Assembly (NCBI RefSeq): GCF_015354405.1
Contig: NZ_JADKYP010000004.1
Coordinates: 1 to 64,000, forward strand
Direction: 5' to 3'
From: Nocardia sp. BSTN01
GTDB taxonomy: Bacteria > Actinomycetota > Actinomycetes > Mycobacteriales > Mycobacteriaceae
Length of the DNA stretch: 64,000 nt
Positions 31,374 to 57,714 of this stretch are shown here, piece after piece (within the stretch, counting starts at the first letter, position 1; each line of letters begins with the position of its first letter). The translations under genes and the position numbers were made by a program. A model generated the notes under the pieces. That model worked only from the letters and a program-made list of their open reading frames with translations, searched no databases and was not told the DNA's origin.

Positions 31374-32339
31374 ATGAACAATTCAACGGTCATCGACGAG
31401 ATCGAGATCGATCTTGCCGAACGGGTCACCGCGCTCGATCTCTATCGTCGCTGGGAAATGCAGCAATGGCAGGCGCAGAGCCTGGAATACGAGCGTGATG
31501 CCGAGGGCTGGGCCCAGCTGCCGGCCTTCGCGCGGTTGCCGCTGCTGGCCACCCTCGCCCGCTTCCTGATCGGCGAGACGACCGTGACCGAGACCTTGGC
31601 GCCGCTGGCCTACGCCGCGCCCGAGGTCGACTACAAGATGTATCTGGCGACGCAGCTGGCCGACGAGGCGCGCCACACCGTCTTCTTCCGGCGTTACCTG
31701 GCCTTTCTCTCCGACACCCTGGGCAACGAGGAGTTGTCGCAGGTCAGCGGCGTCGATCGGGTGGGTGACCTGTTCGAGAAGGCGCTCGTGGACGCGGTCG
31801 AGCGGGTGCGGGCGGATCCGGCCGACACCGCCGCCTGGTACGAGGGGGTGGTGGTCTACCACCTGCTGGTCGAGGGTGCGGTGGCGATGACCGGTCTGCA
31901 CACCGTGCTGGGCACCGTGCGGGCGCTGCCGCGCTTCGACATCCTGCGGACCGGCATCACGAATGTCGCCCGTGACGAATCGCGGCATATTTCCTTCGGG
32001 GTGCTCGCGTTGCGCAACGGAGTCCGCGGCGGATATCGCGAACATATTGTGGAGATGATTCGCAGACATCTTCCGGCGGCGGCCCGGACTCTGGTCGATC
32101 CGGAAACCCGGGATCCGTTTCCGCGATTGGTTCCGGTATTGCAGAAACGCGCCGAGATACTTCACGAACAATGGGAATTCGCGGAGAGTTCTCTCGGCCG
32201 GAGAATGACGTCGATCGGAATACCGCGCGACATTATTTCGGAACTCGCGGAAAACTGGCGCGAATCGTGCGCGGCAGCCGCCGGAGAATATTCCGATATA
32301 CACGGCGAACCACATCCGATCACGTACCTCGTGCGGTGA
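31374..32339 (+). CDS. R2-like diiron protein (ferritin-like oxidase)
   Basis: A 321-residue helical protein. The six iron ligands of the ribonucleotide-reductase R2 fold are visible with normal spacing: Glu68 (LIGETTVTE), Glu98 and His101 (DEARH), Glu167 (LLVEGAVAM), Glu202 and His205 (DESRH). As the first gene of a biosynthetic operon, with no nrdE nearby, it is more likely a tailoring oxidase (hydroxylase, N-oxygenase or desaturase) than a reductase subunit. Possible substrates are the fatty acyl starter on the ACP encoded next (24-base gap) or the serine residue. The last 100 codons are AT-richer than the neighbours, with unusual ATA and AGA codons. The reaction is unknown. Confidence 0.85.
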   Translation: MNNSTVIDEIEIDLAERVTALDLYRRWEMQQWQAQSLEYERDAEGWAQLPAFARLPLLATLARFLIGETTVTETLAPLAYAAPEVDYKMYLATQLADEARHTVFFRRYLAFLSDTLGNEELSQVSGVDRVGDLFEKALVDAVERVRADPADTAAWYEGVVVYHLLVEGAVAMTGLHTVLGTVRALPRFDILRTGITNVARDESRHISFGVLALRNGVRGGYREHIVEMIRRHLPAAARTLVDPETRDPFPRLVPVLQKRAEILHEQWEFAESSLGRRMTSIGIPRDIISELAENWRESCAAAAGEYSDIHGEPHPITYLVR

Positions 32340-32363
32340 ACACAAACAATTCGGGAGCATTTC

Positions 32364-32621
32364 GTGGACGAAAATGAAGTGCGCGACCAGGTACGGGAAC
32401 TGGTCCGTCGGCACGCCCCCCAGCCCTCGGCGGAATTGACCTCCGATGATGTGCTGGCCGAACAGCTGGGTTATGACTCGCTGGCCCTTATCGAACTCGC
32501 GCTCGGCCTGCAGGTGCGATTCGGAATCGACGCCGGCGGTGACTCCGGTGCGACGAATGTGGTGACCGTCGGCGATATCGAGCAGATGGTGTGCGACGCG
32601 CTGCGGGCGAAACAGCCGTGA
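32364..32621 (+). CDS. Stand-alone acyl carrier protein
   Basis: An 85-residue ACP from GTG 32364, with cgggag upstream. The phosphopantetheine site is the Ser of LGYDSLALIELALGLQ, about residue 39. The stop overlaps the next gene, an acyl-AMP ligase, by 4 bases (GTGA), so the ACP is very likely the acceptor of the acyl group that ligase activates. A stand-alone carrier paired with a ligase usually feeds a fatty acid starter into an assembly line. Confidence 0.92.
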   Translation: MDENEVRDQVRELVRRHAPQPSAELTSDDVLAEQLGYDSLALIELALGLQVRFGIDAGGDSGATNVVTVGDIEQMVCDALRAKQP

Positions 32622-34249
32622 CGGGGCTGCTCGACTGGCTGGCCTACGACGGCGAGGACCGGGGCTGGACCATCGCCGACGAGGGCCAATGGCGGCGCGT
32701 CGGCTACCCGCGGCTGAGTGAGCGGGTGCGGCGGGTGGCCGCGGCCTGTATCGACGCCGGGGTGCGTCCGGGTGCGGTGGTTTCCATCGTGGAATCGGCT
32801 CCGGAACGATTCATGACCAATTTCTTCGGCGTGCTGGCCGCGGGAGCGACACCGAATCCGCTGGCGCCGCCGCTACCGCTGCAGAACGAGTCGGCGTATC
32901 GGCAGCAACTGTCGGCATTGCTGGCCGCGGCCGCACCGTCGGCGATCATCGTGGCCGAGGAACTCACCGCGGTGGTTCATCCGGTGCTCGAATCCCTGGG
33001 CGGGGTCACGATTGTCGGGACGTCGAATGAGACTCCCGCCGTGACGGAACTGCCGGGTTGCGAGCCCGACCGGATCGGGTTGCTCCAATTCACCTCCGGC
33101 AGTAGCGGTTCGCCCAAAGCGGTACGGGTATCGGTGGCGAATCTGGAGGCCAATTGCGCCGCGATCGACCGGTGGCTGGAGTTTCGGCCGACGGACCGGA
33201 TCGCCACCTGGCTGCCGCCGTATCACGATATGGGGCTGATCGGCTGCATCATCACGCCGACCATTCTGAATCTGGACATTCAGGCCATGACGCCGATCGA
33301 TTTCATTCGCGATCCGCTGTCGTGGCTGTCCTGTTTCGGCCGCGACGGTGCGACGATCACGGCGACACCGAACTTCGCGCTGGCGTATCTGCTGCGAAAG
33401 ATGACCGACGAAGCCTTGGCCGGAATGGATTTCGATCCCTGGCGGGTGATGATCGTGGGCGCCGAACGGATCGATCCGGCGATTCTGCGCGGCTTCGCCG
33501 AGCGGCTGGCGCCATACGGATTCGATTCGCGCACACCGTGTCCCGCCTACGGGCTCGCCGAGGGCACGCTCGCGGTCTCCGGTCTGCGTCCCTCGGAGCC
33601 GGTGCAGGCCGCCGCGGTGACCCCCGACACCGGCGCCGTGGACGGTCCGTTCGACCTGATGTCCGCGCCGCTCGAGGACGGCCGGCGCTGGCTGGTCGGC
33701 TGCGGCGCACCGCTGGACGGGGTGACGGTGCGGACCGCGTCGACCGACGAATATGCCGGAGCGCCGGGCGAATTGATCGTCGGTGGTCCGAGCGTCGCTC
33801 GGGAGTACCAGACCGCGGAGGGCACTCGCGACCTGTCGCGTGCCGAGGACGGCGCGCTGGCGACCGGTGACGCGGGCCTGCTGGTGGGTGGGCAGCTGTA
33901 TCCGATCGGCCGGGTCGGCGACGCGGTGAAGGTGCGCGGTCGCACGGTCTATGCCGAGGACATCGAGGCGGCCGTGGTGGAGGCGTTCGGCGTGCCCGCC
34001 AATCGTGTGGTCGCGCTGGCAGGCAACGCCTTCGGCGCCGCACGCGTCGCCGTGCTGGTCGAGGACAAGCCGGTGGAGGCTGTGCGACTGCGGCAGGTCC
34101 TGGCCGGGCAGCTCGGAGCGGAGACGTCGCTGCGGTTGTTCATCGGCGACCGGGGACTCATCGCGCGTACCACCAGCGGTAAGCCGCGGCGGCGGGTGAT
34201 GTGGAACCAGTTGCTGCAGGGCGAATTCGACGCCCTGGAGAGGAGTTGA
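32618..34249 (+). CDS. Fatty-acyl-AMP ligase-like enzyme
   Basis: A 543-residue ANL-superfamily enzyme from GTG 32618. The nucleotide loop is LQFTSGSSGSPKAVRVS, followed by the FAAL-typical ATWLPPYHDMGLIG, the ATP-site YGLAEGTLAVSGL, GDAGLLVGGQLYPIGR and VKVRGRTVYAEDIEAAV, and a C-terminal TSGKPRR with the catalytic Lys. FAAL enzymes activate fatty acids as acyl-AMP and pass them to an ACP rather than CoA. The overlap with the ACP gene supports this. The chain length cannot be read from sequence. Alternative: an aryl- or amino-acid ligase, but the PYHDMGL motif argues for FAAL. Confidence 0.88.
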   Translation: MTGLLDWLAYDGEDRGWTIADEGQWRRVGYPRLSERVRRVAAACIDAGVRPGAVVSIVESAPERFMTNFFGVLAAGATPNPLAPPLPLQNESAYRQQLSALLAAAAPSAIIVAEELTAVVHPVLESLGGVTIVGTSNETPAVTELPGCEPDRIGLLQFTSGSSGSPKAVRVSVANLEANCAAIDRWLEFRPTDRIATWLPPYHDMGLIGCIITPTILNLDIQAMTPIDFIRDPLSWLSCFGRDGATITATPNFALAYLLRKMTDEALAGMDFDPWRVMIVGAERIDPAILRGFAERLAPYGFDSRTPCPAYGLAEGTLAVSGLRPSEPVQAAAVTPDTGAVDGPFDLMSAPLEDGRRWLVGCGAPLDGVTVRTASTDEYAGAPGELIVGGPSVAREYQTAEGTRDLSRAEDGALATGDAGLLVGGQLYPIGRVGDAVKVRGRTVYAEDIEAAVVEAFGVPANRVVALAGNAFGAARVAVLVEDKPVEAVRLRQVLAGQLGAETSLRLFIGDRGLIARTTSGKPRRRVMWNQLLQGEFDALERS

Positions 34250-34251
34250 CG

Positions 34252-35397
34252 ATGGCGCCGGTACCGCTGTCGACCGTCGACCACATGTGGACGGCGAATA
34301 TGGCCGGTCCGCTGCAGTTCGTGGTGGAGTTCGGCGAGGTGCTCGACGCCGATCGGATCGTCGAGGCATATGTCGAGACCGCCCGCGAATTCGTCGGCGC
34401 GGACGCGGCACTGGTGCAACTCGACGAGCGCACCCTGGCGCTCGACGTCGACGATCCGCGCCCCGCGATCCGGGCCACGGTCGCCGAATCCACCGTGCCG
34501 CTGAGTGAATGCCTCGACCCGGTCGAGATCGGGGTGGGCCATGTGCTCGCACGCGGCCGGGTGGTGACCCGCGGCGACCGCACGGCCGTCGGGCTGTCGA
34601 TGTCGCACGGCTTGGCCGACGGCTACGGCATGTTCTTCTTCCTGGCCGCATGGGCGGCTCGGGCACGCGGTGCTCGCTTCCTGTCGCCGCGCTGCGACCG
34701 CCAGGTGCTGACGCGGCCGCAGGCCCGTGAACGCGACAGCGTCGATCCGGATGCGTTGCGCCGGGCCGGTTTCGTCATCGTCGAGCCGGATCTGGAGCTG
34801 CCCGAACTCGACGTCCACACCGGACGGCTCGACCTCACCGAATGCGAGGCGCAGGCCGAGGTTTCGGGCCTGTCTACCGCGGATCTGGTGGCGGCGGGCC
34901 TGTTTCGCGACTACGCGGCGACCAAGGACACCGACCGGGTGACCCTGGCCTGCCCGGTCGACATCCGTCGCTTCGTCCGCGAGCTGGGCCCCACGTATTT
35001 CGGTAACGCCTTCGTGCAGGTGCTGGTCGATGTCGACACCGAGCGGGTGCGCAACGCCTCGGTTCCGGAGATCGCCGGCTGGGTGCGGGACGCGGTCGCC
35101 ACCGCGCCCGAACGCATCGACGACGCGATCGCCGAACTCGAGGCGTTTTTGCAGGTGCACGGCGTCGCGGGACTCGACCGGGTGTGGGGATATCCGCCGC
35201 AGTCGGGCTTCCTGGTCAGCAATCTGTCCCGGATCCCCGCCTCCTGGCTGGATTTCGGCGCCGGGCCGCCGGTCGGTCTGGTGACACCGGGCCGCCGGCC
35301 GCGCCAGGACGGGGCCTATCTGCTGCCCGATCCGGAGCGAGCGCACAGCCTGCAATGGGCCTCCACGCTCGAGCACGAACCGGCCGCGCGTTCGTAG
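34252..35397 (+). CDS. BAHD/CAT-fold acyltransferase
   Basis: A 381-residue protein from ATG 34252 after gaggag. It carries the catalytic HxxxDG motif as SMSHGLADGYGM (His119, Asp123) and a C-terminal DFGAGPPVGL matching the structural DFGWG motif of BAHD transferases. This fold, shared with NRPS condensation domains, transfers acyl groups from CoA or carrier proteins to OH or NH2 groups. The next assembly-line protein begins with only the second half of a condensation domain, so this enzyme could supply condensation in trans, joining the acyl-ACP to serine. Otherwise it may acylate the finished product. It sits 2 bases after the ligase. Confidence 0.8.
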   Translation: MAPVPLSTVDHMWTANMAGPLQFVVEFGEVLDADRIVEAYVETAREFVGADAALVQLDERTLALDVDDPRPAIRATVAESTVPLSECLDPVEIGVGHVLARGRVVTRGDRTAVGLSMSHGLADGYGMFFFLAAWAARARGARFLSPRCDRQVLTRPQARERDSVDPDALRRAGFVIVEPDLELPELDVHTGRLDLTECEAQAEVSGLSTADLVAAGLFRDYAATKDTDRVTLACPVDIRRFVRELGPTYFGNAFVQVLVDVDTERVRNASVPEIAGWVRDAVATAPERIDDAIAELEAFLQVHGVAGLDRVWGYPPQSGFLVSNLSRIPASWLDFGAGPPVGLVTPGRRPRQDGAYLLPDPERAHSLQWASTLEHEPAARS

Positions 35398-35412
35398 AGA
35401 GACGAATCCGAT

Positions 35413-36237
35413 ATGGCTGCAGCGATGACCTACAGCATGGCCGTCGGCGATCGCGATGCGGCGCGCCTGGCCCTGCTGGATCAGCATTACAACCCGAGTT
35501 CCCGGGCCTTCCTCGAGTCGGTCGGGCTGTGTGCCGGTGCGACGGTGGCCGATATCGGCTGCGGGCACGGCGCGATGACGGCCTGGCTGGCCGAGCGGGT
35601 CGGGCCGGACGGCATCGTCTACGCCGTCGACGCCTCCGCCGAACAGCTCGAGATCGCCCGCCGGCTGGTCGGCGATCTGCCGCAGGTGCGCTACGTGCAC
35701 GCGCGCATCGAGGACGCACCGCTGGAACCCGGATCGGTCGACTGGGTGTACAGCCGCTTCCTGCTGATGCATGTGACCGACGCCGCCGCCGCGCTCACCG
35801 CGATGGAGCGCATGCTCGCCGACGACGGTGCGCTGCTGCTCGAGATGTCCGACGTCGGGGCACTGCGATTCGTCCCCGCCGACGATCCGGCCGCGGATCT
35901 GTGGCGGGAGTGGTGGTTCGCCCTCGGCCGGGCGCGCGGCGCCGCGCACGACATCTACGACCGCACTCCGCAGCTGCTCATCGAGGCCGGCTTCATCATC
36001 GCGCGCCGCGATCGCTTCCAGCCGGTGTCGGCGATGCCGGAGGCGAAGATGTTGCACGCCTTGGGTTTCGAACAGTGTGTGCCCGCCTACCTGGAACACG
36101 CCGGCGCCGACCCGGCGGCCATCGATGCCCATCGCGCCTTCCTGCAGCGCGTCGTCCCGGATACCGACATCGCCGTCGAACTGTATGCGACCAGCCAGTA
36201 TTTCGCCCGCAAACGTCCGCGGGCACGAAGATTGTGA
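35413..36237 (+). CDS. SAM-dependent methyltransferase
   Basis: A 274-residue class I methyltransferase. SAM motif I is VADIGCGHGAMTAWLAERVG (45-64), with DASAEQLEIARRLV (motif II region), LEPGSVDWVYSRFLLMHV and a post-motif region with MLADDGALLLEMSDVG. The substrate-binding half is C-terminal and helical. It lies between the acyltransferase and the carbamoyltransferase, each 9 to 15 bases apart, and is thus a tailoring enzyme of the pathway, perhaps an O-, N- or carboxyl-methyltransferase. A carboxyl ester would fit a line lacking a thioesterase, but the target cannot be read here. Confidence 0.88.
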   Translation: MAAAMTYSMAVGDRDAARLALLDQHYNPSSRAFLESVGLCAGATVADIGCGHGAMTAWLAERVGPDGIVYAVDASAEQLEIARRLVGDLPQVRYVHARIEDAPLEPGSVDWVYSRFLLMHVTDAAAALTAMERMLADDGALLLEMSDVGALRFVPADDPAADLWREWWFALGRARGAAHDIYDRTPQLLIEAGFIIARRDRFQPVSAMPEAKMLHALGFEQCVPAYLEHAGADPAAIDAHRAFLQRVVPDTDIAVELYATSQYFARKRPRARRL

Positions 36238-36246
36238 GCCTCCGCC

Positions 36247-38043
36247 ATGGTGAGAACACCAGCCGCGCAACCGAAGTCGATCATGGGGATCAGCGGTCTG
36301 CACAACAGTGTGCCGTTCAAGCAGGCCCGGTTTCCGGGACTGGAATGGCGTGATTATCGCATCACCCAGGGCTTCGATTCCGCGGCGGCGCTGCTGCACG
36401 AGGGCGAGCTGGTCAGCGCGGTCGCGGAGGAGCGGTTCACCGGCGAGAAGGCGACGGGCGCCTTTCCCGAACACGCCATCCGTTTCGGCTGCGAGCGGGC
36501 CGGGATCTCGGTCGATTCGCTCGACGTCCTCGCGCACGGCTTCTCCTACGAGCCGTTGCGAGCCGAATTCGATCACAGTGAGCTCGGGCGCGCGCGCTTC
36601 CGCGAGGTCTTCGCCCGGCAGGTGGTGCTGGACAAACTCGCGGAGACCTTCGGCGGTGACTGGGACGACCGGCTGGTGCAGGTGCCGCATCACCTGGCCC
36701 ACGCGGCCAGCACGTTCTATCCGAGCGGATTCGATTCGGCGCTGATCCTGGTGGCCGACGGCATGGGGGAGCAGCACAGCGCGACCGTCGCGCTCGGAAC
36801 GGATGCGGGCATCGAACCGATCGCGACGGTCTCGGAGCTGAATTCCCTGGGAATTCTCTACGGCGTCTTCACCTACTATCTGGGCTTCGCGTTCGGCCTC
36901 GACGAATACAAGATCATGGGGCTGGCGCCCTACGGTGACCACCGCAAACACTTCGCGGCGATGATGGATCTCATTCATCTGCGGCCGGACGGTACTTTCA
37001 CGATTCCCATCCTGTACCGCAACGAAACCGATCTGGACCGGGAAACCTACCGCGGCACACTGAAAGCCGTCGAGGAGATCTTCGGGCCGGCCCGCGGCCC
37101 CGAGGACGAACTGACCGACCACCACCGCGATATCGCGGCCGCCCTGCAGGCGGCGCTCGAGGCGACGCTGCTGCATACGCTGCGGCACTTCCGCAAACAG
37201 ACCGGCGCGAAGAATCTGTGCATGGCCGGCGGGGTCGCGCTCAACTGCACGGCGAACGGCGTGATTCTGCGCAGCCGCCAGTTCAAGCGCATGTTCATCC
37301 AGTCCGCGGCCGGCGACGACGGCACCGCGCTGGGTGCCGCGTTGTACGTCCACCATCAGCGTGACCAGGCGGCCCCCATCGCGGGCATCGAGACCCCGCT
37401 GAACGGCCCGGAATACTCCGACGACGAGATCGCGGCGGCGCTGACGGGCCGCACCGACTGCACCGCAACACGATTCGACGACTTCGCGGCGCTGGCCGCC
37501 GAACTCGGCCGCCGGTTGGCCGCCGGGCAGATCGGGGCGCTGTTCCAGGGGCGCCTGGAGTACGGACCGCGCGCCCTGGGCAATCGCAGCATTCTCGGTG
37601 ACCCGCGCCATCCGCGGATGCGCGACATCATCAACGCGAAGGTGAAGAAGCGGGAGGGGTTCCGGCCCTTCGCCCCCGCGGTCCTCGACGAGTACGCGAC
37701 CACGTATTTCGACATCAAGGACACCGAGGTCGACACCTACGCCTGGATGTTGTTCATCACCTCGGTGCGGCCGGAATTCCGCGAGGGATTGCCGGCGGTC
37801 ACCCATGTCGACGGATCGGCCCGGGTGCAGACGGTGTCGCGGGACCGCAACGAACGGTTCTGGACGGTGATCGACGCCTTCCGGCGGGAAACCGGAACGC
37901 CGATCCTGCTGAACACCTCGTTCAACGTGAAGGGCCAGCCGATCGTGTGCACGCCGGCCGAGGGCCTGGACACCTTCGTCACCGCCGGACTGGACGTGCT
38001 GGCCATCGGCAATTACCTGGTAGAGCCGGTTCGCGCCGGATAA
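36247..38043 (+). CDS. O-carbamoyltransferase (NodU/TobZ family)
   Basis: A 598-residue protein from ATG 36247 (the ribosome-binding site is weak; ATG 36283 is an alternative). The N-terminal Kae1/YrdC-like part has the metal-binding HHLAHAAS (148-155), DGMGEQHSATVAL, and GGVALNCTANG. The C-terminal carbamoyl-transfer domain has GRLEYGPRALGNRSILGDPR, PFAPAVLDEYA and PILLNTSFNVKGQP. These enzymes form carbamoyl-AMP from carbamoyl phosphate and ATP and pass it to a hydroxyl group, as in tobramycin, novobiocin and ansamitocin pathways. A hydroxyl on the serine unit or on the chain is the likely acceptor. All family motifs are intact. Confidence 0.93.
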   Translation: MVRTPAAQPKSIMGISGLHNSVPFKQARFPGLEWRDYRITQGFDSAAALLHEGELVSAVAEERFTGEKATGAFPEHAIRFGCERAGISVDSLDVLAHGFSYEPLRAEFDHSELGRARFREVFARQVVLDKLAETFGGDWDDRLVQVPHHLAHAASTFYPSGFDSALILVADGMGEQHSATVALGTDAGIEPIATVSELNSLGILYGVFTYYLGFAFGLDEYKIMGLAPYGDHRKHFAAMMDLIHLRPDGTFTIPILYRNETDLDRETYRGTLKAVEEIFGPARGPEDELTDHHRDIAAALQAALEATLLHTLRHFRKQTGAKNLCMAGGVALNCTANGVILRSRQFKRMFIQSAAGDDGTALGAALYVHHQRDQAAPIAGIETPLNGPEYSDDEIAAALTGRTDCTATRFDDFAALAAELGRRLAAGQIGALFQGRLEYGPRALGNRSILGDPRHPRMRDIINAKVKKREGFRPFAPAVLDEYATTYFDIKDTEVDTYAWMLFITSVRPEFREGLPAVTHVDGSARVQTVSRDRNERFWTVIDAFRRETGTPILLNTSFNVKGQPIVCTPAEGLDTFVTAGLDVLAIGNYLVEPVRAG

Positions 38044-38059
38044 GTGGGATCGAGTTACT

Positions 38060-41000
38060 GTGCAAGCCGACTTTCTTCCCGGCGTCCTCGCCATCGCCAC
38101 CGATTTCCGCCGCGCACCGGTGCAGCGATATCTGCGTGCCCGGGAGGAGTATCGTCCCGGCGCGTCGGGCCCGGCGGTGGCGGCGTTGGTCGCCCTGATC
38201 CACAGGCATTCCGAACACGCCGAGGTCACACTCGGCGTGATCGCGCCGGAGGATGATTCACCGATTCCGCTGCGGATCGCCGTCGATCCGGATCGCACGG
38301 CGGAAGCGCTGGCCACCGACGTCGACGACGCCCGGTCGCGGCTGGTGGCCGCGCGTGCCGACTTCGACCTCGACGAGCTGATCGAGAAACTCTGCCCCAC
38401 ACCGATTTTCGATCGGCATCCGCTGTTCCAGATCGCCTGTTGCGAGCTCACCGGCGACCACGATGCGGACGCGGCGGAGGATGCGCTCGAGGCCGTCGTC
38501 GGCTGCGATCTGGTCTTCGTCGACGATCGCGGCGTCGGCGAACTGCGCTGCGAATACGATGCCGAGCTGTTCGAGCCACAGACGGTGCGCCGGCTCCTCG
38601 CGCAGTGGGCGCTGCTGATCGACGCGTTCACCGCGCATCCGGATACCGCGCTCGCGGCCTTGCCGATGCTGCCGGAGGACGACCGGACGGCCCTCGACGA
38701 GTGGTCGGCCGGACCGCCGGCGGCCCGCCCGGCGACGACCCTGCACGCATTGATCGCCGAACGAGCGGCGCGCCGGCCGCACAGTCCCGCGGTGATTTCC
38801 GAGGCGGGCACGTTGAGCTACGGCGATCTCGACGACCGCGCGGCGCGGGCCGCCGGATATCTGAGCGCCGTGGGTGTGCGGCCCCGGCAGATCGTCGCGC
38901 TGTGCCTGCGGCGCTCGCCTCGCGTGCCGGTGCTGGCGCTGGGTGTCATGAAGGCCGGCGCGGCCTATCTGCCGCTGGATCCGGCGGATCCGGATGCGCG
39001 GCTGGCGACGATCCTCGCCGATTCCGGCGCGTCGGTAGTGCTGTGCGACGATGCCGACATCGCCGGACGCTTATCGGCCGAGGGCGTCACGGCGATCGAT
39101 CTGGATGCGGTGTGGGACGACCTGGAACAGGTCGAGCCCGCGCCCGCGCGGGTCGGCGCGCCGACGGATCTGGCCTACGTCATCTACACCTCCGGCTCGA
39201 CCGGCCGGCCCAAAGGTGTGCTGATCGAGCACGCGGCGATCTGTAATCGTTTGCTGCACGGCGCGATTCGCATCGACGAATCGGACCGCGTGCTACAGAA
39301 GACGCCGCTGACCTTCGACGTGTCGGTGTGGGATCTGTTCTATCCGCTGGTGCACGGTGCGCAGTCGGTGCTGTGCGATGCGGAGGGGCATCGGGATTCG
39401 CGCTACCTGCTGGAAACCATTCGCGCGCAGGAGATCACCGTCGCTCACTTCGTGCCCTCGATGCTGCGCACGTGGCTGGCCGAGCCGGGAGTCGAGTCGT
39501 GTACCTCGCTGCGCTGTGTGACCACCAGCGGTGAGGCGCTGCCCGCGGATGTGGCCGCCGAATTCCATCGGCTGCTGCCGGATACCGCGCTCCACAACTA
39601 TTACGGACCGACCGAAGCGGCCGTCGACGTCACCTGTGAACAGGTACTTCCGGGAGCGGCGGTCACCCTCGGCCGGCCGATCGAGAACGTCCGCGCCATC
39701 GTCTTGGACACGGCGGGACAGCTTGTGCCCGTGGGAGTTCCGGGCCAGCTGCATCTGGCCGGAGTCTGCTTGGCGCGCGGTTATGTCGATCCCGCCGACG
39801 AGATCGGCCGCTTCGTGGCCGACCGGCGGACCGGAGAACGGCTGTACGCCACCGGCGATCGGGTGCGGCGGCTGGCGGACGGACGCCTGGAATATCTCGG
39901 CCGAGCCGACCATCAGCTGAAATTGCGTGGCCTGCGCATCGAGGCCGGTGAGGTCGAGTCGGCGTTGCGCACCGCCGACGGGGTGCGCGAGGCCGTGGTC
40001 ACGGTCTTCGGTGACGATCCGCAGCGCAGCGAACTGGTCGGCTACGTGAGCCCCGCGGACGGGGCGGTGGCCGACGCCGATGTGTTGCGTGAGCATGCCC
40101 GTGCGCTGCTGCCGTCGTACATGGTCCCGGCGAGAATTGTTGTGCTCGATGAATTTCCGCGCAATACCGCCGGGAAGATCGACCGCGGGAGGTTGCCCGC
40201 GCCCGTCGCGACGGTGCGCAGCGCAACCACGGCGTCGCCGAACGAACTCTCCGACGCGATCGCGGCGGTGTGGGCGCGGGTGCTCGAATGCGACTCGGTT
40301 CCCGCCACCGCGAACTTCTTCGATCTCGGCGGCAATTCACTGCTCGTGGCCCGGGTGCACCTGGCCTTGGAAGAGGCACTCGGCATCTCGATCGCGCGCA
40401 CGGACCTGTTCCGCTATCCGACCGTCGCCGCGCTGGCCGCGGCCCTCGCCGGCTCGGTGGCCGCCCGAGATGTGGCCGACGAGGCCGCCGACCACAGCGG
40501 TCCGTTCGCGGTGATCGGGATGGCCGTGCGCGTGCCGGGCGCCGCCGATCTCGACGAATTCTGGGATGTCATCGCGGGTGCGCGCACGACGATGACCGAC
40601 CTCGACGACGAGCAACTCCGGGCCGCGGGCGAGTCGGCCGAGCGCATCGCCGCGCCGAATTATGTGCGCACCGCGGCGGTCCTGGACGATATCGCCGGAT
40701 TCGACGCCGACTACTTCGGCTTCACCGCCCGCGAGGCGCAGGTCACCGATCCGCAGCACCGGCTGCTGCTGGAATGCGCGGTCGAGGCGCTCGAACACGC
40801 GGGCTACGGTGGTGCGCCGCAGCGGCCGCGCACCGGGGTGTTCGTGGGCGGACTGCCCAGCAGCTACTTCCATCGTTATTTCGCCGACGACTTCACCCAG
40901 TTGCCCTCCACCCAGCACTACCAGATCAAGGTGGGCAACGAAGCGGACTTCCTGCCCACCTCGATCGCCTATCGCCTCGACCTGCACGGACCTGCCGTCA

Positions 41001-45697: not shown

Positions 45698-45702
45698 GGG
45701 AT

Positions 45703-49115
<3,413 letters not shown>

Positions 49116-49119
<4 letters not shown>

Positions 49120-52100
49120 CCCCGACCGCGACGAATCCGAGTGCGCTGCCCGAGGACGGCGACAGCAGCGAAGCCTTACGCGGCGCCATCGCCGCCTTGC
49201 GCACCGCCCGTGGGGCGCTGGCGCAGCGCAGTGAGCCGGTCGCCGTGATCGGTGCGGGCTGCCGCCTGCCCGGCGGGGTCGATTCGCTGGACGGCTTCGC
49301 CGAATTCCTGCGCGCGGGCGGCGACGGCGTGGTCGACATTCCGCCGGACCGCTGGGATGTCGAGCACTACTACGACGCCGATACCGACGCACCCGGCCGA
49401 TCCTTCATCGCGAAGATGGGCGCGCTCACCGATATCGGCGATTTCGATGCCGCCTTCTTCGGTATCTCACCGCGCGAGGCCGAGGCCATGGACCCGCAGC
49501 AACGACTGCTGCTCGAGGTCACGTGGGAGGCGCTCGAGCACGCCGCGGTCCCACCGGAAACCCTGCGCGAAAGCCGAACCGGCGTCTTCGTCGGCATGTG
49601 CCCCAACGATTACGGCGCCGCGGCCACCGACCCGGCGGCGATCGACATCTACTCCGCGACCGGTCTGGCGCCGTCGGTGGCGGCCGGGCGCATCGCCTAC
49701 CACCTCGGACTGCAGGGCCCCGCCCTGGTCGTCGATACCGCGTGCTCGTCCGCGCTGGTCGCGCTGCATCTGGCGGTGCAGAGCCTGCGTTCGGGAGAGT
49801 GCGATCTGGCCTTGGTGGCCGGAGTCAATCTGATCGTCTCCCCGCAGTCGATGATCTCGATGTCGAAACTGCGGGCGCCCTCGCCGAGCAATCGCTGCGC
49901 ACCCTTCTCCGCGGCCGCCGACGGACTGGTGCGGGGCGAGGGATGCGGCGTCGTCGTACTGAAGCGCGAATCCGCCGCCCACGCCGCCGGCGACCGCGTG
50001 CTGGCCTCGATCGTGGCCACCGCCGTCGACCAGGACGGTCGTAGCAACGGCCTCACCGCCCCCAACGGCCGCGCCCAGGAACAGGTGCTGCGAGAGGCGT
50101 TGCGCGAGGCGAAGGTGGAGGCCGGCCGCATCGACTACATCGAGGCGCACGGCACCGGCACCCCGCTCGGCGACCCGATCGAATTACGCGCGCTCTCGGC
50201 GGTTTTCGGTGCCGAACGCGACCGACCGCTGCTCGTCGGATCGGCGAAGGGCAATCTGGGACATCTGGAACCGGCCGCCGGGATCGCCGGACTGCTCAAG
50301 GCCATCACGGTCGTCCGCGACCGGATCGTCCCGCCCACACTGCATTTCGACGCACCGAATCCGCTGATCGACTGGGATGCCACGCCGATCGTGATCCCCG
50401 CCGCCGCGCAAGAGATCCCCGGCGCCGAACCGGTCTACGCCGGGGTCAGCGCGTTCGGATTCAGCGGGACCAACGCGCATACGATCATCACCGCGGCCCC
50501 CGGAACCGGATCGGCACCCGAGGAAGCCGCCGAACCGGCGCGGGAACTGCTGGTCCTGCCGCTGTCGGCGGCAACCGGTCAGGCCCTGCGAGAGACGGCA
50601 CTTCGCGTGCGCGACGCATTGGCGGCCGATACGCCCGCGCGGGACCTGTGCTTCACCGCGTCCCGCCGCGCCGCACTCGACCATCGTGCCGTGGTGATCG
50701 GCGAAACCGCCGCCGCACTGCAACGCGGCCTCACCGCCATCGCCGAGGACCGCGACCGCGCGGGCGTGATCCGTGGCCGCCGCGGCGAACCGGGCGCCCT
50801 GGTCTTCGTCTTCGCCGGATTCGGTGGGCACTGGCCCGGGATGGGCGCCCAGCTCATGGCCGATCATCCGGTCTTCGCCGAGGCGGTGCGGCGATGCGCG
50901 GCCGCCTTCGAACCCCATCTGGGCATCGATATCGCGGAACTGCTGGCCGCCGGCGAATCCGACGGCGGCCGTATCGATCTCGCCCAGCCCATGTCCTTCG
51001 CCGTGCAGATCGGATTGGCGGAGTTGCTGGCGGCGAACGGATTCCGCCCCGATGCCGTCATCGGCCACAGCGTCGGTGAGATCGCGGCCGCCCGGGTGGC
51101 CGGGGCACTGAGCGTCGCGGACGCGGCCGCGGTCATCGTTCACCGCAACCGGGTGCTGCGGGCGATCGAGGGAACCGGCGGCATGCTGTCGGTGCCGATG
51201 AGCGTCGGCGAGCTCGACGGATGGCTGGAGCGGATCGAAGGCGCATTCGACCTGGCCGCGGTGAACGGCCCCGCGCAGGTCGTCGTCTCCGGCACGGTCG
51301 CCGATCTGGACCGGCTCGAAAAGGCGCTCGCCGCAGCGGGATACGACCCACGCCGGGTGAAGATCGAATCGGCCGCGCACAGTCGTCAGCTGGATCCGCA
51401 CCTGGACGCCTTCGTCGAACGGATCGCCGGCATCACCGCGATGCAGGGTGGCCGGGCCGCATTCCTGTCCACCGTCGAGTCCGACTACCTCCCCACCGGT
51501 GCGCTGACCGCCGACTACTGGGCCCGCAATCTGCGCAGCACGGTCCGCCTCGACGAGACGGTCGAGCGGGTGCTCGCGGAGGGCCCGGCGACCTTCGTCG
51601 AGATCGGGCCGAATCCGGTCCTGGTCGACGGTATTCGCGCCCGCATCGATGCCTCGAACGACCGGGGCGCGGTGGCCGGTTCCCTAAGGCGCAAGGGCTA
51701 CGCCCGCCGCGACATCCTGGAGCTGATCGCCCGGTTGTACGTGCACGGACTACCCGTGGACTGGGCCGCTGCCGGGGTGCGCGGCCGGATCGTCGACCTG
51801 CCGTCGTATCCGTGGCAGCACAAGCGGTTCTGGGCGCGCTCCGATTGGGATGTGGCCGCCGAACAGCACGGCGGACAGGCTGTGGTCGAATCGTCCGTCA
51901 GCGGCGAACGCCTCCTGCAGCGGGTGGTCGATCCCGCCCGCTCGCCCTGGCTGCTCGACCACGCCGTGGGCGACACCCCGGTCGCCGCCGGTGCCTGGCT
52001 GGTCAATCTCGCCGCCGCGGCACGCCTGCAGCACGGTTTCGGACCGGGATGCCATTTCGCCGATATCCGGTTCGAACGAGTGCTGACCCTGCCCGAGTCC

Positions 52101-55100
52101 GGCCGCCGAGTGCAGGTGGTGTTGCGCGACAACGAATTTCGGATCAGCGCCCGTTCGGCCGAATCGAACGACGCGGCCACGGTGTGGACCGAGCACGCCC
52201 GTGGGCGGATCGTCTCGGGCGAGCACCTGCCGGAGGCGCCGGGCCTGAGCGCGGCACAGCGGCGCTGCCTCACCGCGGTCGATCCGCAGGATCTCTACGC
52301 GGCCTACACCCGCAACGGCACCCGCTACGGGCCCGCGTTCCGCACCGTGACGGAGCTGTCGGTCGGCGACGGCGAGGCGCTCGGCCGGGTGAGCGCGGTC
52401 ACCGGCGCGCGCGATCCCGAGCAGGGAGTGACGGCGGCCGCGGTGCTGGACGGATGTTTCCAGGTGGTCGGCGCCCTGGCCGGGGACGAACTGTTCCTGC
52501 CGTCCGCGATCGGCGCCCTGTCCGTCGCCGACCACATTCCGCCTCAGGTCCACGCCCACGTGCGCCGCTACTCTCGCGAAGGACGCCTGCAGACCGCCGA
52601 TCTCGACATCTACGCCGACGACGGTTCCCTCGTCGCCACGGTGCGCGAGTTGACCGCGACCCGCGTCGACAGCGCGGATACCGCCGAGGCCGCCGTCCTC
52701 GCGGTCGATTGGCAGCAGCACCCGCGTACGACCGGCCGGCTCTCGGGGCGCTGGGTGGTCGTCGGCGGCGACGCGGAGGACGACGTACCGCTGGGATCCG
52801 CAACGCTGATCCGGGAGCTCGTGGCGGCGGGCGCCGAGACCGCCACCGCCGCGGTCGCGCCGAGTGCCGACGAGAGCGAACCGGAGGCCGCGTCCTTCGA
52901 TGAACCCGCGGACCACATCCTGTACCTCGCCGGAACCGAGGACGGCGCAACGGCATTCGCCGATCTCGCCGCCCTGCTCGGCCTCGCGCGCACCCTCGTG
53001 CGGATGACCTCCGCGCCGCGCCTGTGGGTGGTCACGCGAGGCGGACAGGCGGTGGCGCGGGAATGCGTCGATCCGTGGCAGGCCGGTCTGTGGGGTTTCG
53101 GCACGGCCCTGGCCGCCGAACACCCCGAATTGCGGACCACGCTCATCGACCTGGCCGCCGATGCGGGCGTGGACGGCGACGACGCGGCCGATTTGGTCGC
53201 GGAACTCGCCGACGGCAGTGAGCGACATATCGCGCTGCGCGCCGGAATGCGCTGGGTCGCGCGCCTCGACCGGGTCCGGCTGAACCCGGATCCGCCCGTC
53301 GTCGCCGCCGGAACCCGCGGGTTCGGGGTGGATATCGACGAGCCGGGCCGATTGCAGACGCTGACGCTGCGCGGACGCGGCCTCCCGCGACCGGGCCCGC
53401 GCGAGGTCGTCATCGCGGTGGCCGCGGCCGGTCTCAACTTCGCCGACGTCATGTGGGCCATGGGCTTCTTCTCGGATCTCGACGCCGTGCCCCTGGGATC
53501 GGAATGCGCGGGCACCGTCGCAGCCGTGGGCACCGACGTCGATACGGTGCGTGTGGGCGACCGGGTGGTGGCGGTGGCGCTGAACAGCCTGGCCACCCAT
53601 GCCGTCGCGGACGCGGCACTGGTTCATCGGCTGCCGGAGACGTTCCCGCTCACCGACGCCGCGGCGCTGCCCACCGCCTACACCACCGCGTGTTACGCGC
53701 TCGAACATCTCGCCCGGGTGCGCCCGGGCATGCGCATCCTGATCCACTCGGGTACGGGGGGAACGGGTTCGGCGGCCATCGCGGTGGCCCAGCGGCACGG
53801 GCTGGAGATCATCGCCACCGCGGGCACCGAGGAAAAGCGCCGCTTCCTCCGAGAGCTGGGTATCGAGCACGTCTTCGATTCGCGCACTATGGAATTCGAG
53901 CAGCAGGTTCTCGACGTCACCGGCGGCGCGGGGGTCGATATCGTGCTCAACTCCCTCACCGGCGCGGCCGCCGAGGCGAGTCTGCGCACGGTCGCCGCCG
54001 ACGGAATCTTCCTCGAGCTCGGCAAACGCGATATCTACGGCTCGGGGCGGCTGCCACTGGAACATTTCAAACGCCGGATCACCTACACCGCGGTCGATAT
54101 GGCCGGACTGCACCGCGAACGCCCCGCCGTGTTCGCCGAACTTCTGCACCACACCCTGGACCGCGTCGTCTCCGGCGAACTGAGACCGCTTCCGGTGCAG
54201 ACCTATCCGATCGCCGCGGCGCCGGAGGTCTTTCGTCTCATGAGCACCGGCGCGCACACCGGGAAACTGGTGCTGGTGACCGACGAGGCGGCCACCACCG
54301 ACATCGTGCGCGGCGCCGCGCAGGGGCTGGCCGAACCCGGCTGCATCCTGATCACCGGCGGCCTCGGCGGGCTCGGTCTCGACCTGGCCCGCACCCTGGT
54401 CGAACGCGGCGGCGCGCAGATCGGGCTGCTGGCCCGCCGCGAGCCGAATGCCGAGGAACGCGCGATCATCGACGAACTCAATGCCGATGGAGAGCGGGTC
54501 CGGGTGGAGCGCGCCGACGTCGCCGACGCGGCCGAGGTCGGCGCCGCCGTCGCGCGGTTGCGCTCCCGGGTCGGCCCGGTGCGCGGTGTGTTCCATCTCG
54601 CGGCCGTCCTGCGTGACGCCGTATTGACCAACCAGAGTTGGGCCCAGTTCGATCCGGTGCTGCGCCCCAAGGCGTTGGGAGCGTGGAATGTGCACCGCGC
54701 CGTGGCGGGTGACCCCATCGAGTACTTCGTGATGTACTCCTCCACCGCGACGGTGCTGCCCTCGGGCGGTCAACTGAACTATGCCGCCGCCAACGCGTTT
54801 CTCGACGGCCTGGCCCACTACCGGCGCGCCCAGGGCCTGGCGGCTACCGCGGTGGCCTGGGGCCCGTTCCGCGATACCGGACTCGCCGCACGCAGCACCG
54901 CGACGGAGGAGTATCTGGCCGGCCGCGGAATCCGCTCGCTGACACCGGCGGCGGGGTACACACTGCTGGAGACGCTGCTCGACGACGGTCGCCCGCGCGC
55001 CGCGATCATCGGTCTCGACGCCGACGCCTGGCTCGGCGCGCACCCCTTCGCGCGCGCCGTTCCGCTGTACGAACCGTTGCGCGCCATGGGTTCCGGCGCC

Positions 55101-55397
55101 ACCTCGGCCTTGGCGGACGAGTTGCGCTGCCTCCCGGCCGAGGAGCGCGACACCGCGCTGTGGGAGCTGTTGCTGAGCAGGACGGCTGCCGTTCTGCGCA
55201 TCGACACCGACGAAATCGACCCGGCCACACCCTTTCTGGAGCTCGGCATGAGCTCGCTCGCGCTGCTCGAATTCAAGAACGGACTGTCGGCCGCCCTGGG
55301 CATCGACCTGCCCGGCGCGGTGCACTGGGAACATCCGACCGCGCGGGCGATGCACCGCTATCTGTCCGGCCGCCTACGCGAGGAGCAGTCCCGATGA
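49116..55397 (+). CDS. PKS module: KS-AT-DH-ER-KR-ACP
   Basis: A 2093-residue PKS from TTG 49116, overlapping the previous stop by 4 bases and preceded by ggaagagg. KS: Cys210 in DTACSSALVALH, HGTGTPLGD, GNLGHLEPAAG. AT (about 560-860) looks active: FAGFGGHWPGMG, Ser652 in GHSVGEIAAARVAG; the specificity region reads ESAAHSRQ, neither HAFH nor YASH. DH: His949 in LDHAVGDTPVAAG, where the usual G and P are changed, with Asp in LDGCFQ. ER: LNFADVMWAMG and HSGTGGTGSAA (about 1545). KR: LITGGLGGLG, SSTATVLPSGGQLNYAAA with Tyr1889. ACP Ser2047 in LGMSSLALL. Full reduction is expected if the DH works. There is no thioesterase or reductase. Confidence 0.92.
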
Positions 55398-56299
55398 GCG
55401 TCTACCTGCACGGGATTTCCTACGCGGTCGGCGCCCGCGAGCCGATCGCAGGCCTCGAACCGCTGCGGGAGGACCCGGCCATGCTGCGCGATATGCACGG
55501 CCTCGGCCTGTACCACTACTGCCGCACCGAACAGACGCCGCTGCAACTGGCCGCCGACGTCGTCGCGAGCACCCTCGATCGGATCCCGGTGGATGCCGCC
55601 GAGATCGACCTGCTGGTCTACGCGTCGTCGAGCCCCGAAACCGGAGCCCTGGCCGGTGGTGACTTCCTGCGCTTCTGTGAGCGTTTCGGTCTCACCCGCG
55701 CCACTCCGATCGGTGTCACGCTGGCCGAATGCGCGAATTTCGGGAGTGCCCTGCGCATCGCGCACAGCCTGGTCGCCGCCGGATCGGCTCGCAACGTCCT
55801 GGTGGTCACCTCCGACGCGTGCCCGGACCCGCACGCCCGTATTCTGCGCGACGCGCTCTCGGTCCTGAGCGACGGCGCCGCCGCCTGTCTGATCACCTCC
55901 GCCGAACCGTCGCGGATCGAGGTGCTCGGCTCGAACCAGGGCACCAACCAGTTGATCCGTGTGGCGAAGATGCCGGCCCTGGCGGGGCTGACCAAGCGTG
56001 GCCTGTCCCGCGCGGTGGCCGATATGCTCGACCGCGCCGGTCTGGACCGCGGCGACGTGCGCCGCATCATCGCCAACAACGTCAACGAGGAGGCCGTGCG
56101 GTTCATGGCCGATTCGGCCGGACTCGACCACGACCTGTGCTACCTGGACAACATCGCGGACTACGCGCATGTGCATTCGGCCGACAACCTGATCAATCTG
56201 CAGACCTATCTGGAGGACGGCGTCGCGCCGGGGGAGATCGTCATGACCATCAGCCACGGGTTCGGCACCTGGGGCGTCGCACTGTTGAGGATCGGCTGA
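55394..56299 (+). CDS. KAS III-like thiolase-fold acyltransferase
   Basis: A 301-residue protein from ATG 55394, overlapping the PKS stop by 4 bases. It has the KAS III layout and nucleophile Cys113 in TLAECANFGSALRIAHS. The other two catalytic positions differ from FabH: where FabH has HQANxRI it reads ANNVNEEAV (Asn for His), and where FabH has GNTSAA it reads AHVHSADN (His259/His261, then Asp264). The C-terminal GFGTWGVALL is kept. KAS III-like proteins with rearranged triads such as CerJ transfer acyl groups to hydroxyls or amines instead of making C-C bonds. It could load a starter or release and esterify the chain. Confidence 0.82.
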   Translation: MSVYLHGISYAVGAREPIAGLEPLREDPAMLRDMHGLGLYHYCRTEQTPLQLAADVVASTLDRIPVDAAEIDLLVYASSSPETGALAGGDFLRFCERFGLTRATPIGVTLAECANFGSALRIAHSLVAAGSARNVLVVTSDACPDPHARILRDALSVLSDGAAACLITSAEPSRIEVLGSNQGTNQLIRVAKMPALAGLTKRGLSRAVADMLDRAGLDRGDVRRIIANNVNEEAVRFMADSAGLDHDLCYLDNIADYAHVHSADNLINLQTYLEDGVAPGEIVMTISHGFGTWGVALLRIG

Positions 56300-56300
56300 C

Positions 56301-57632
56301 ATGCTCGCATTCGTATTTCCCGGTCAGGGAGCGCAATTCCCCGGCATGAGCAAGGCGCTGGCCGACACCTACCCGGTCGCGCGCGAGATCTTCGACCGCG
56401 CCGACGCGGCGATCGACTTCGGCCTGAGCGAACTGTGCTTCGCCGGCGACCCGGCGGAGCTGGCCCGGACCGAATACGCCCAGCCCGCGATCCTGGCCAC
56501 CAGTGTGGCCGCCTATCGAGTGCTGGTGTCGGAGACCGGCATTCATCCGATGGTCGTGGCCGGGCACAGCCTCGGTGAGATCACCGCGCACGTCTGCGCC
56601 GGCGCCCTCGACGTCGAGACCGCGGTGCGCCTGGTGCGTCGCCGGGGCGCCCTGATGCAGGAAGCGGTGCCGCCGGGGGCGGGCGCGATGGTGGCGGTGA
56701 TGGGTCTCGCCGCCGAGGAGGTCGACCAAATCTGCTCCGCCGCAGCGCGTTCCGAGGTCGTGGCGGTCGCCAACTACAACGGCGCGAGCCAGATGGTGAT
56801 CTCCGGGCACACCGGCGCGGTCGGCAGGGCCCGGCAACTCGCCGAGGAACGCGGGGCGATCACCCGTGCGCTCGACGTCAGCGCGCCGTTCCACTGCGCA
56901 CTCATGGCACCCGCCGCCGCCACCTTCCGATCCGAACTCGCCGGCGCCGCATTCACGTCACCGCGAATACCGGTGGTGGAGGGCACGTCCGGGCGGTGGC
57001 GAACCGACGCCGACCCGGTCGACTCGCTGTCCGCGCAGATCTGCGCACCCGTGCGCTGGGATGTGGTGATGGCCGGACTGGCGGCCCGCGGCATTCGATA
57101 CGTGATCGAAGCCGGGCCCGGCGCACGCCTGACATCCATGCTGCGCCGATCGGAAAAAGGCATCGGCACAGCGCATTTCGGTGAGCCGCAGGATCTCGAC
57201 GCGGTTGTCGCTCTCCTCGGTGACCGGCCGTGGCTGCGGCGCGAGCCCGGGTACTGGCAGCACGGTGACCGCGGCGACCTGTACGCGCCCGCTACCTCCG
57301 AGATCGTCTGGGCCGGTACCGACGAAGCCGAGCCGATGACCGACGCGGCCTGGACCACCCGTTCCGACGGCTCGCGTCTGCGTCGCTACGGCCCGATGGC
57401 GGTGATCACGGCGGACAACGCGCTGCGCACCTACGATCCGGCCGTCTGGACGCCGCGCGAGGACGGCGCCTATGTGCGCCGCGACCACACCGCCGTCGAG
57501 CACCCGGCCACCGGCGGTGACAGTTTCGACCCGGCGGACTGGATCGTCGACCCGTCCGGGACCATGTGCCGTCGCGACGGCTCCCGCGTCGTCTGGCCCG
57601 ACGGCGACGAGTGGAGCTTCGCCACGCCCTGA
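56301..57632 (+). CDS. Discrete malonyl-CoA acyltransferase with C-terminal repeat extension
   Basis: A 443-residue protein. Residues 1-305 are a FabD-type acyltransferase: FVFPGQGAQFPGM, Ser90 in AGHSLGEITAHV, Arg115, His198 in APFHCALM, and EAGPGARLTSML. It is the obvious trans-acting partner for the two assembly-line AT domains that lack serine. Residues 306-443 are an extra region not found in ordinary FabD proteins. Three related units, WTTRSDGSRLRRYG (351), WTPREDGAYVRRDH (383) and WIVDPSGTMCRRDG (414), end with WPDGDEWSF. The extension may be a docking module; I know no equivalent. It begins 1 base after the KAS III-like gene and is the last gene of the operon. Confidence 0.9.
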   Translation: MLAFVFPGQGAQFPGMSKALADTYPVAREIFDRADAAIDFGLSELCFAGDPAELARTEYAQPAILATSVAAYRVLVSETGIHPMVVAGHSLGEITAHVCAGALDVETAVRLVRRRGALMQEAVPPGAGAMVAVMGLAAEEVDQICSAAARSEVVAVANYNGASQMVISGHTGAVGRARQLAEERGAITRALDVSAPFHCALMAPAAATFRSELAGAAFTSPRIPVVEGTSGRWRTDADPVDSLSAQICAPVRWDVVMAGLAARGIRYVIEAGPGARLTSMLRRSEKGIGTAHFGEPQDLDAVVALLGDRPWLRREPGYWQHGDRGDLYAPATSEIVWAGTDEAEPMTDAAWTTRSDGSRLRRYGPMAVITADNALRTYDPAVWTPREDGAYVRRDHTAVEHPATGGDSFDPADWIVDPSGTMCRRDGSRVVWPDGDEWSFATP

Positions 57633-57639
57633 GCGATCT

Positions 57640-57700
57640 CATACGGTCGTATTGACCGACGGTTCATACGTTCGTATGGTAGGTCTCATACGAACGTATG
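57640..57700. promoter_or_regulatory. Three palindromic operators
   Basis: CATACGGTCGTAT(T) at 57640-57653, CATACGTTCGTATG at 57665-57678 and CATACGAACGTATG at 57687-57700 are near-identical palindromes; the last two are perfect 6-bp arms around TT or AA. Centres are about 25 and 22 bases apart, roughly two helical turns. They lie between the acyltransferase gene and the small membrane protein gene at 57715. They resemble TetR-family operators and the regulator encoded at 58441 is the obvious candidate. Confidence 0.8.
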
Positions 57701-57714
57701 AAAGGGTGTGCGCG

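Follow-up and report, generated by a model that had tools for sequence, protein, structure and literature searches.

An R2lox-type oxidase beside a fatty acyl-AMP ligase and an acyl carrier protein in a lineage-restricted hybrid lipid/amino-acid/polyketide gene cluster of Nocardia

The DNA analysed here, hereafter the window, is a stretch of 64,000 nucleotides from Nocardia sp. BSTN01 (assembly GCF_015354405.1, contig NZ_JADKYP010000004.1, positions 1 to 64,000), which at 31374-57632 contains 11 open reading frames, genes A to K, all on the + strand (Table 1) and spaced, from A to K in order, by 24, -4, 2, 15, 9, 16, -7, -4, -4 and 1 bases. Along the cluster, Pfam families comprise the ribonucleotide reductase small-chain fold, PP-binding, AMP-binding, Transferase (BAHD), a class I methyltransferase and the N- and C-terminal carbamoyltransferase families, followed by a combined nonribosomal peptide synthetase-polyketide synthase (NRPS-PKS), two PKSs, ACP_syn_III and Acyl_transf_1. 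Ten or more tightly spaced genes of such families on one strand had been described in an earlier note made without database searches, and the families named there are recovered by Pfam. The description as a hybrid lipo-amino-acid/polyketide operon likewise holds, as acyl loading functions, a Ser-like adenylation (A) domain, three ketide modules and a carbamoyl- and a methyltransferase are all present, and the general class of a hybrid lipid/amino-acid/polyketide cluster is near certain. The starts of genes C (near 32618), D (most likely 34252) and J (near 55394, versus 55160 for the longest open reading frame) were picked from coding score and spacing. Within the 7.79 Mb host genome (G000; G and L numbers below denote genomes and loci) the cluster lies on contig C141.

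Table 1. Genes of the cluster in the window. C, condensation; PCP, peptidyl carrier protein; KS, ketosynthase; AT, acyltransferase; DH, dehydratase; ER, enoylreductase; KR, ketoreductase; ACP, acyl carrier protein.
Gene	Product or domains	Coordinates	Strand	Basis
A	R2lox-type dimetal oxidase, 321 amino acids	31374..32339	+	PF00268, R2lox structure matches
B	Discrete ACP, 85 amino acids, GYDSLA motif	32364..32621	+	PF00550
C	Fatty acyl-AMP ligase (FAAL)	32618..34249	+	PF00501, AMP-binding_C absent; PDB 3pbk
D	BAHD-type acyltransferase, 381 amino acids	34252..35397	+	PF02458, HGLADG (HxxxD), DFGAG
E	Class I S-adenosylmethionine-dependent methyltransferase	35413..36237	+	PF08241
F	O-carbamoyltransferase, GdmN/TobZ type	36247..38043	+	PF02543 and PF16861; GdmN 7vyj
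G	Half-C, A (Ser-like), PCP, KS, truncated AT (GYGTG), DH, KR, ACP	38060..45697	+	NRPS-PKS domain search
H	KS, AT without catalytic Ser (GVGVG), ACP	45691..49119	+	PKS domain search
I	KS, AT (GHSVG), DH, ER, KR, ACP	49116..55397	+	PKS domain search
J	KASIII-like, Cys (ECANF), HxxxxD (HVHSAD)	55394..56299	+	PF08545/PF08541
K	Discrete malonyl-CoA:ACP transacylase (GHSLG), C-terminal tail of about 159 amino acids	56301..57632	+	PF00698, NCBIfam fabD

The cluster is a lineage-restricted accessory locus. Among 151 Nocardia genomes, 18 contain a match to gene A at E<=1e-20, 12 of which (the host included) are at least 84% identical and six 36-52% identical; relatives of 84-98% identity occur in N. 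cerradoensis, N. aobensis, N. kruczakiae, N. mikamii, N. elegans, N. nova (two records), N. africana and N. vermiculata, species which we take to be the Nocardia nova group and which place the window in that group. Genes A to K are complete and in the same order in eight of the 12 carriers (the window and G014, G071, G084, G085, G124, G140 and G040), and the other four (G005, G076, G083 and G086) possess the first genes, with J about 24 kb away on the same contig as in the window; in the species-named records the part read extends from gene A through F to the KS of G. The gene directly before the cluster (29652-30875), which has no match in a Pfam search and for which we assume the name glpR given in the earlier note, has a relative in 150 of the 151 genomes, and in 12 of 12 carriers this relative directly precedes gene A (the contig of G040 holds only its end). 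Four genomes have an empty site. In G132 and G145, glpR directly adjoins the gene for a 98-amino-acid protein that lies behind the cluster in the window; in G093 and G146 it adjoins the TetR gene. At the site of G141 (L129 11304-11732), about 395 bases are 72% identical to the FAAL gene and contain stops in all three forward frames, and in a tree of flank proteins G141 stands among the carriers, with the seven carriers as one clade in 0 of 200 bootstrap trees and an unstarred support of 93/94 for the fork with G141. This nesting and the FAAL remnant indicate that the cluster was most likely present early in the N. nova group and then lost in G141. The proposed accessory insertion behind glpR is thus borne out by the presence of the cluster in 12 of 151 genomes and by the empty sites, and a core gene set shared by all relatives is not what the 151 genomes contain. 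A plasmid origin was considered and rejected, as plasmid records match short stretches only (at most 7% of gene G), and a relative of the carbamoyltransferase was not found in viral contigs.

The cluster is maintained, with all genes under purifying selection that is weakest in vestigial domains. The ratio of nonsynonymous to synonymous substitution rates (dN/dS), calculated for the window versus the three divergent carriers G085, G124 and G140 with domain limits set by eye, is 0.05-0.37 gene-wide (highest for K in G085), 0.08-0.13 for the KS domains, 0.43-0.46 for the half C domain of G and 0.40-0.43 for the AT remnant of the first PKS module in G (45-57% identity); the two fastest-evolving parts are the parts that have lost catalytic residues. 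The AT of the second PKS module (gene H), at 0.27-0.36, overlaps with parts that look functional, namely gene K and, with values up to 0.32, two domains of gene I, its ACP and its DH. Because the same gene order is found in seven further genomes and each gene is constrained to this degree, chance is excluded. A decaying cluster with a broken pathway would account for the two ATs without Ser, for the half C domain, for the thioesterase domain that was not found in genes A to K (Pfam, E<=0.001) and for the one relative, G141, that retains only a FAAL remnant, but the AT losses are common to seven of seven copies in open frames under the above constraint, and the discrete AT has an intact GHSLG in all seven, which makes decay very improbable.

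Gene A, a diiron oxidase according to the earlier note, indeed has a dimetal oxidase fold, which can be refined to R2lox-like. Its PF00268 score of 33.9 compares with a gathering score of 33.6, its best PDB matches are 6qk1 and 4hr0 (GkR2loxI; about 3e-18), followed by other R2lox proteins including 3ee4, and its five NCBIfam matches are all R2lox models, all below cut-off; as the best of them reaches 109.8 bits versus 194, gene A probably belongs to a divergent R2lox subfamily. The metal ligands E68, E98, H101, E167, E202 and H205 are kept, as is the pair V71/Y162, Val and Tyr being described as the residues of the R2lox ether cross-link (PMC6399176). Gene A thus resembles GkR2lox and MtR2lox in sequence, ligands and cross-link pair, but differs from them in scoring well under the NCBIfam cut-offs and in belonging to a clade associated with FAAL and ACP genes within biosynthetic clusters. 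This clade emerges from an alignment of the window with 84 homologues, in which the metal ligands are kept in 84/84 and Val and Tyr in 80/84 each; the homologues are four Nocardia loci and the best 80 of 151 relatives from a scan of genome contigs, pre-selected via two short peptide patterns and hence not a census. Four Streptomyces homologues (L082, L088, L089 and L106), which form a long branch outside the FAAL clade, have Val replaced by Gly and Tyr by Phe.

A FAAL gene is located near the R2lox gene in 25 rows, the window included (23 rows were scored by script, and L034 was entered by hand, its FAAL being on the adjoining stretch L035). In the tree, these 25 rows form one side of a branch with a support of 100/97, recovered in 200 of 200 bootstrap trees; some long branches meet there (L050, and L082 with three more beside the clade), which makes the placement of L050 and of the root side less certain. 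An adjacent ACP is present in 24 of the 25, namely in the window, in 22 rows by a profile built from eight ACPs of the FAAL-clade rows and in L028 (ACP on L027), L050 being the exception. For the other 60 R2lox genes, a FAAL match above 60 bits was found in 0/60 within the stretch examined, three reaching 49-52 bits, and an ACP match within 2.5 kb in 0/60, where 41 are flanked by 2.5 kb or more on each side and the rest have shorter stretches.

The FAAL assignment of gene C is derived from PDB matches, with 3pbk ('Fatty Acyl-Adenylate Ligase', 2e-57) at the top. Six of the top 15 chains are named as adenylate or AMP ligases (3pbk, FadD32 and FadD23 twice each, FadD28 once); the other nine have names like 'Acyl-CoA synthase' or 'Polyketide synthase', most of them presumably being FAALs as well, and the scores against the NCBIfam FAAL models are below cut-off.

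The trio of R2lox, FAAL and ACP occurs in different contexts. Besides the N. nova cluster described here, these are a region of N. thailandica in which genes for Asn synthase, a GMC oxidoreductase and PhyH accompany it, and loci of Streptomyces, Actinacidiphila and one Nocardia in which the companions are GDSL, GMC, acyl-CoA dehydrogenase, ThiF and AurF genes. Since fatty-acid activation, carrier and R2lox are common to differing contexts, an acyl-ACP is indicated as substrate, and the association suggests an acyl-ACP oxidase cassette. Oxidation by gene A of the amino acid, the polyketide or the released product instead of the acyl chain would be in line with the debate on R2lox substrates, as alkane oxidation has been reported for GkR2loxI and its bound fatty acid was judged an unlikely substrate in 2024 (PMC10867098), and as of 2019 the physiological function of R2lox was described as not identified (PMC6399176). 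With FAAL and ACP accompanying this R2lox clade across otherwise different gene contexts, we consider such other substrates unlikely and the acyl chain on the ACP the preferred one.

The cassette is comparable to the JamA-type FAAL-desaturase-ACP cassette of jamaicamide (PMC11837247) in that a FAAL would load a discrete ACP and an oxidase would act on the acyl-ACP, but the oxidase is of the R2lox type. A JamABC-type alkyne cassette was rejected, as gene A has no desaturase-family Pfam match and is RNR/R2lox-like instead. With FAAL-initiated NRPS-PKS lipopeptide clusters the locus shares a FAAL and a discrete ACP feeding an NRPS-PKS line, while BAHD and half C domain, a KASIII-like enzyme and the thioesterase not found set it apart.

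Among the related loci, L061, L062, L068, L070, L072 and L032 contain a recurring set of MFS, FAAL, R2lox, ACP, GDSL, GMC oxidoreductase, acyl-CoA dehydrogenase, ThiF and AurF genes, with families assigned by Pfam on L032 and by similarity in the others. At L060 (10954-20713), L069 (11023-17768) and L071 (8892-11264) the trio adjoins a gene with a weak match to class II tRNA synthetases; L060 and L069 also contain AurF-family and class III aminotransferase-type genes, and L060 a halogenase-like gene. These three loci resemble the aliphatic azoxy neighbourhoods described in PMC9379638. An aliphatic azoxy pathway was rejected for the present cluster, since the AurF-, tRNA-synthetase- and halogenase-like genes stand beside the trio elsewhere and none of them occurs here.

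Regarding the link between acyl chain and amino acid, the N-terminal approximately 215 residues of gene G match only positions 297-455 of the Condensation model (E 0.00026, below the gathering score), and about 220 residues of the predicted structure (predicted local distance difference test, pLDDT, 47) align to solved C domains of about 435 residues; a sequence search of this half C domain against the PDB gave no match. In six of six orthologues, the open frame of G reaches back into gene F by at most about 115 bases, which leaves no room for the missing C half. Gene D scores 52 bits with PF02458 (cut-off 22.7) and has HGL[AS]DG and DFGAG in six of six orthologues, where HxxxD and DFGWG are the BAHD motifs, the latter here as a variant. 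Its predicted structure (pLDDT 44) has BAHD enzymes as best Foldseek matches, followed by C domains and PapA5, at template modelling (TM) scores of only 0.24-0.33, so that the fold matches of D and half C domain are weak support. Outside the carriers, relatives of gene D were found in 0/396 other genomes of the order (E<=1e-8) and in 0/395 genomes of the phylum (E<=1e-6), samples which were evenly drawn and partly overlap, with up to four candidates scored per genome. Gene D would form the acyl bond in trans.

The A domain of G, which has EntF among its PDB matches, not as the best one, shows the code D V W H T S Y V D(K) as read by eye, whereas the Ser code, as we assume it, is DVWHFSLVDK; Ser is the likely substrate. 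The acyl-Ser backbone of the earlier note is thereby retained as far as a Ser-like A domain is concerned, the identity of the residue depending on this eye-read code.

In an alternative order of events, the Ser-like residue would start the chain un-acylated and the oxidised acyl group would be added late as ester or amide by D or J, with the half C domain as a relic. Completed alcohols or amines are common substrates of BAHD enzymes, and an intact C domain that could hand on an acyl chain is missing. The transfer of malonyl to a sugar hydroxyl by CerJ (PMC9573744) also fits such a late step. The positions of A to D as the first four operon genes, ahead of the NRPS gene with E and F between, and the presence of two acyl-transfer enzymes, one free per role, weakly favour early acylation, and overall late acylation is rather doubtful compared with acyl-amino-acid bond formation by D at the start of the chain.

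Three modules follow, as the earlier note had recognised for the NRPS-PKS and two PKSs; the refinement lies in two ATs without Ser and in the missing half of the C domain. The AT active-site Ser is replaced by Gly in G (GYGTG) and H (GVGVG; GIGVG in G085) in seven of seven copies, and in the same seven the cis-AT of I keeps GHSVG and the discrete AT K keeps GHSLG, K reaching 285 bits with NCBIfam fabD (cut-off 261). The line, otherwise of the cis-AT type, thus apparently shows a natural cis-to-trans AT complementation. Discrete ATs complement AT-less PKSs, and AT-null modules have been complemented by engineering (PMC6164871); the present cluster shares with these systems a discrete malonyl-type AT beside modules without working AT, but differs in that the ATs are present in truncated or Ser-less form and in that module I keeps its cis-AT. 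In gene H a reductive domain was not found, and a RhiE-type branching domain was rejected, as the stretch 541-990 is the AT without Ser and has KS-AT proteins, CurL for example, among its PDB matches. The approximately 159-residue tail of gene K (57153-57632) has repeated units with W and DG.

Gene J keeps the KASIII Cys, with Asn and His at the positions where FabH chains have His and Asn, which in FabH have catalytic roles. His and Asp of its HVHSAD are five apart, a spacing equal to that of H296 and D301 in ChlB3, and Cys and HxxxxD are kept in six of six orthologues. The triad C113/H296/D301 of ChlB3 is common to CerJ (PMC9573744), and the likeness of J to these enzymes comprises Cys, His-Asp spacing and replacement of the FabH His/Asn. 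Gene J is more likely an acyltransferase than a condensing enzyme, and these residues suggest that it performs acyl transfer or chain release; the KAS III family named in the earlier note is confirmed in this refined, acyltransferase-looking form. A paralogue of J, 53-54% identical, with Cys and HxxxxD kept in the one copy aligned, occurs elsewhere in the host genome (G000:C144:26716-27615, L140) and in relatives. At L138 (9638-10543) its neighbours are restriction-modification genes and a gene for an MmyB-like regulator, the stretch read being free of PKS genes, and a partial copy in G005 carries a stop.

Gene F matches GdmN (7vyj) at 1.7e-101 and is homologous to the GdmN/TobZ O-carbamoyltransferases over residues 43-592 of 598. 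Relatives at E<=1e-110 are found in 6/393 other genomes of the class; two genomes read (G751 and G864; L125-L128), with 49-51% identity, have them in very large NRPS clusters unlike the present one. A 4-amino-2,4-pentadienoate (rakicidin-like) chemistry with the carbamate as leaving group was a mere idea and is not claimed; the main text of PMC5075396 does not contain 'carbam'.

The flanks consist of NTP-transferase, MoeA, GNAT and glpR genes before the cluster and of genes for the 98- and a 143-amino-acid protein, TetR, AraC, FUSC and MarR behind it, and are common to carriers within the stretches compared, with the exception of G071, in which no TetR, 98- or 143-amino-acid gene was found. 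In the window, these three genes are separated from the end of the cluster by three CATACG..CGTATG-like units at 57639-57705 (perfect 16-nucleotide inverted repeat), likely an operator of the neighbouring TetR and part of the flank.

From gene and domain content, motifs and motif losses, conservation, selection, site and R2lox-FAAL-ACP association, all of them observed, we infer every reaction, the reaction order, the residue and the product of a scheme in which an intact, lineage-restricted cluster would make a small acylated, carbamoylated amino-acid/triketide. FAAL C would load a fatty acid onto ACP B, and the R2lox-type A would hydroxylate or desaturate the ACP-bound acyl chain. A Ser-like residue would be loaded by A and PCP domains of G, and BAHD D would make the acyl-amino-acid bond, in trans because the own C domain of G is only a half. 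Modules G, H and I would add three ketide units, one ene, one keto and one reduced; since the ATs of G and H lack the catalytic Ser, K would supply the extender of these two modules in trans. F would add a carbamate and E a methyl group, and as a thioesterase was not found, J may free the chain by passing the acyl group on to a hydroxyl, an amine or water.

Our confidence in this step-by-step scheme is evenly divided, and several points weigh against it. BAHD enzymes usually take CoA donors, which makes the ACP donor of D an assumption, and the structure models of D and the half C domain are of low confidence. The A-domain code is off the assumed Ser code at two of nine positions. The AT motif of gene I is SAAH, neither HAFH (malonyl) nor YASH (methylmalonyl), and its DH does not match the HxxxGxxxxP pattern, which the DH of G matches, for which reason full reduction by I is uncertain. 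Gene J differs from CerJ and ChlB3 in that no CerJ-, DpsC- or ChlB3-named chain is among its 32 PDB sequences (E<=0.001), and K, at a dN/dS of 0.37 in the G085 pair, evolves as fast as the AT remnant of the second PKS module.

That the cluster encodes an already characterised natural product is conceivable, since N. africana and N. kruczakiae, both with a gene A orthologue, are among 13 Nocardia strains picked for product screening (PMC11364655). A literature search with subscription journals and MIBiG outside its scope, however, found neither a link between R2lox and a biosynthetic gene cluster nor a gene cluster of ribonucleotide reductase, acyl-AMP ligase and ACP, matches for Nocardia, carbamoyltransferase, hybrid NRPS and FAAL were unrelated by title, and in the main text of a FAAL review (PMC11837247) neither 'diiron' nor 'ribonucleotide' occurs. 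A known product is therefore quite improbable, and any novelty of the product stays provisional.

The cluster is a genuine hybrid, maintained and lineage-restricted, that combines several unusual solutions. The product alone would be of moderate interest, as clusters without assigned product are common. A broader reading, to which we give an even chance, is that the FAAL- and ACP-associated R2lox clade consists of dedicated natural-product acyl-ACP oxidases, hydroxylating or desaturating, and that in Nocardia cis-AT activity was lost to a discrete AT and a BAHD enzyme replaces the half C domain. If true, the Nocardia cluster would show in nature how a trans-acting AT takes over from cis-ATs and how a condensation step passes to a separate enzyme, both useful for assembly-line engineering. 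The unusual point is a testable substrate proposal for R2lox; if true, the acyl-ACP oxidase function would give R2lox a defined biosynthetic substrate.

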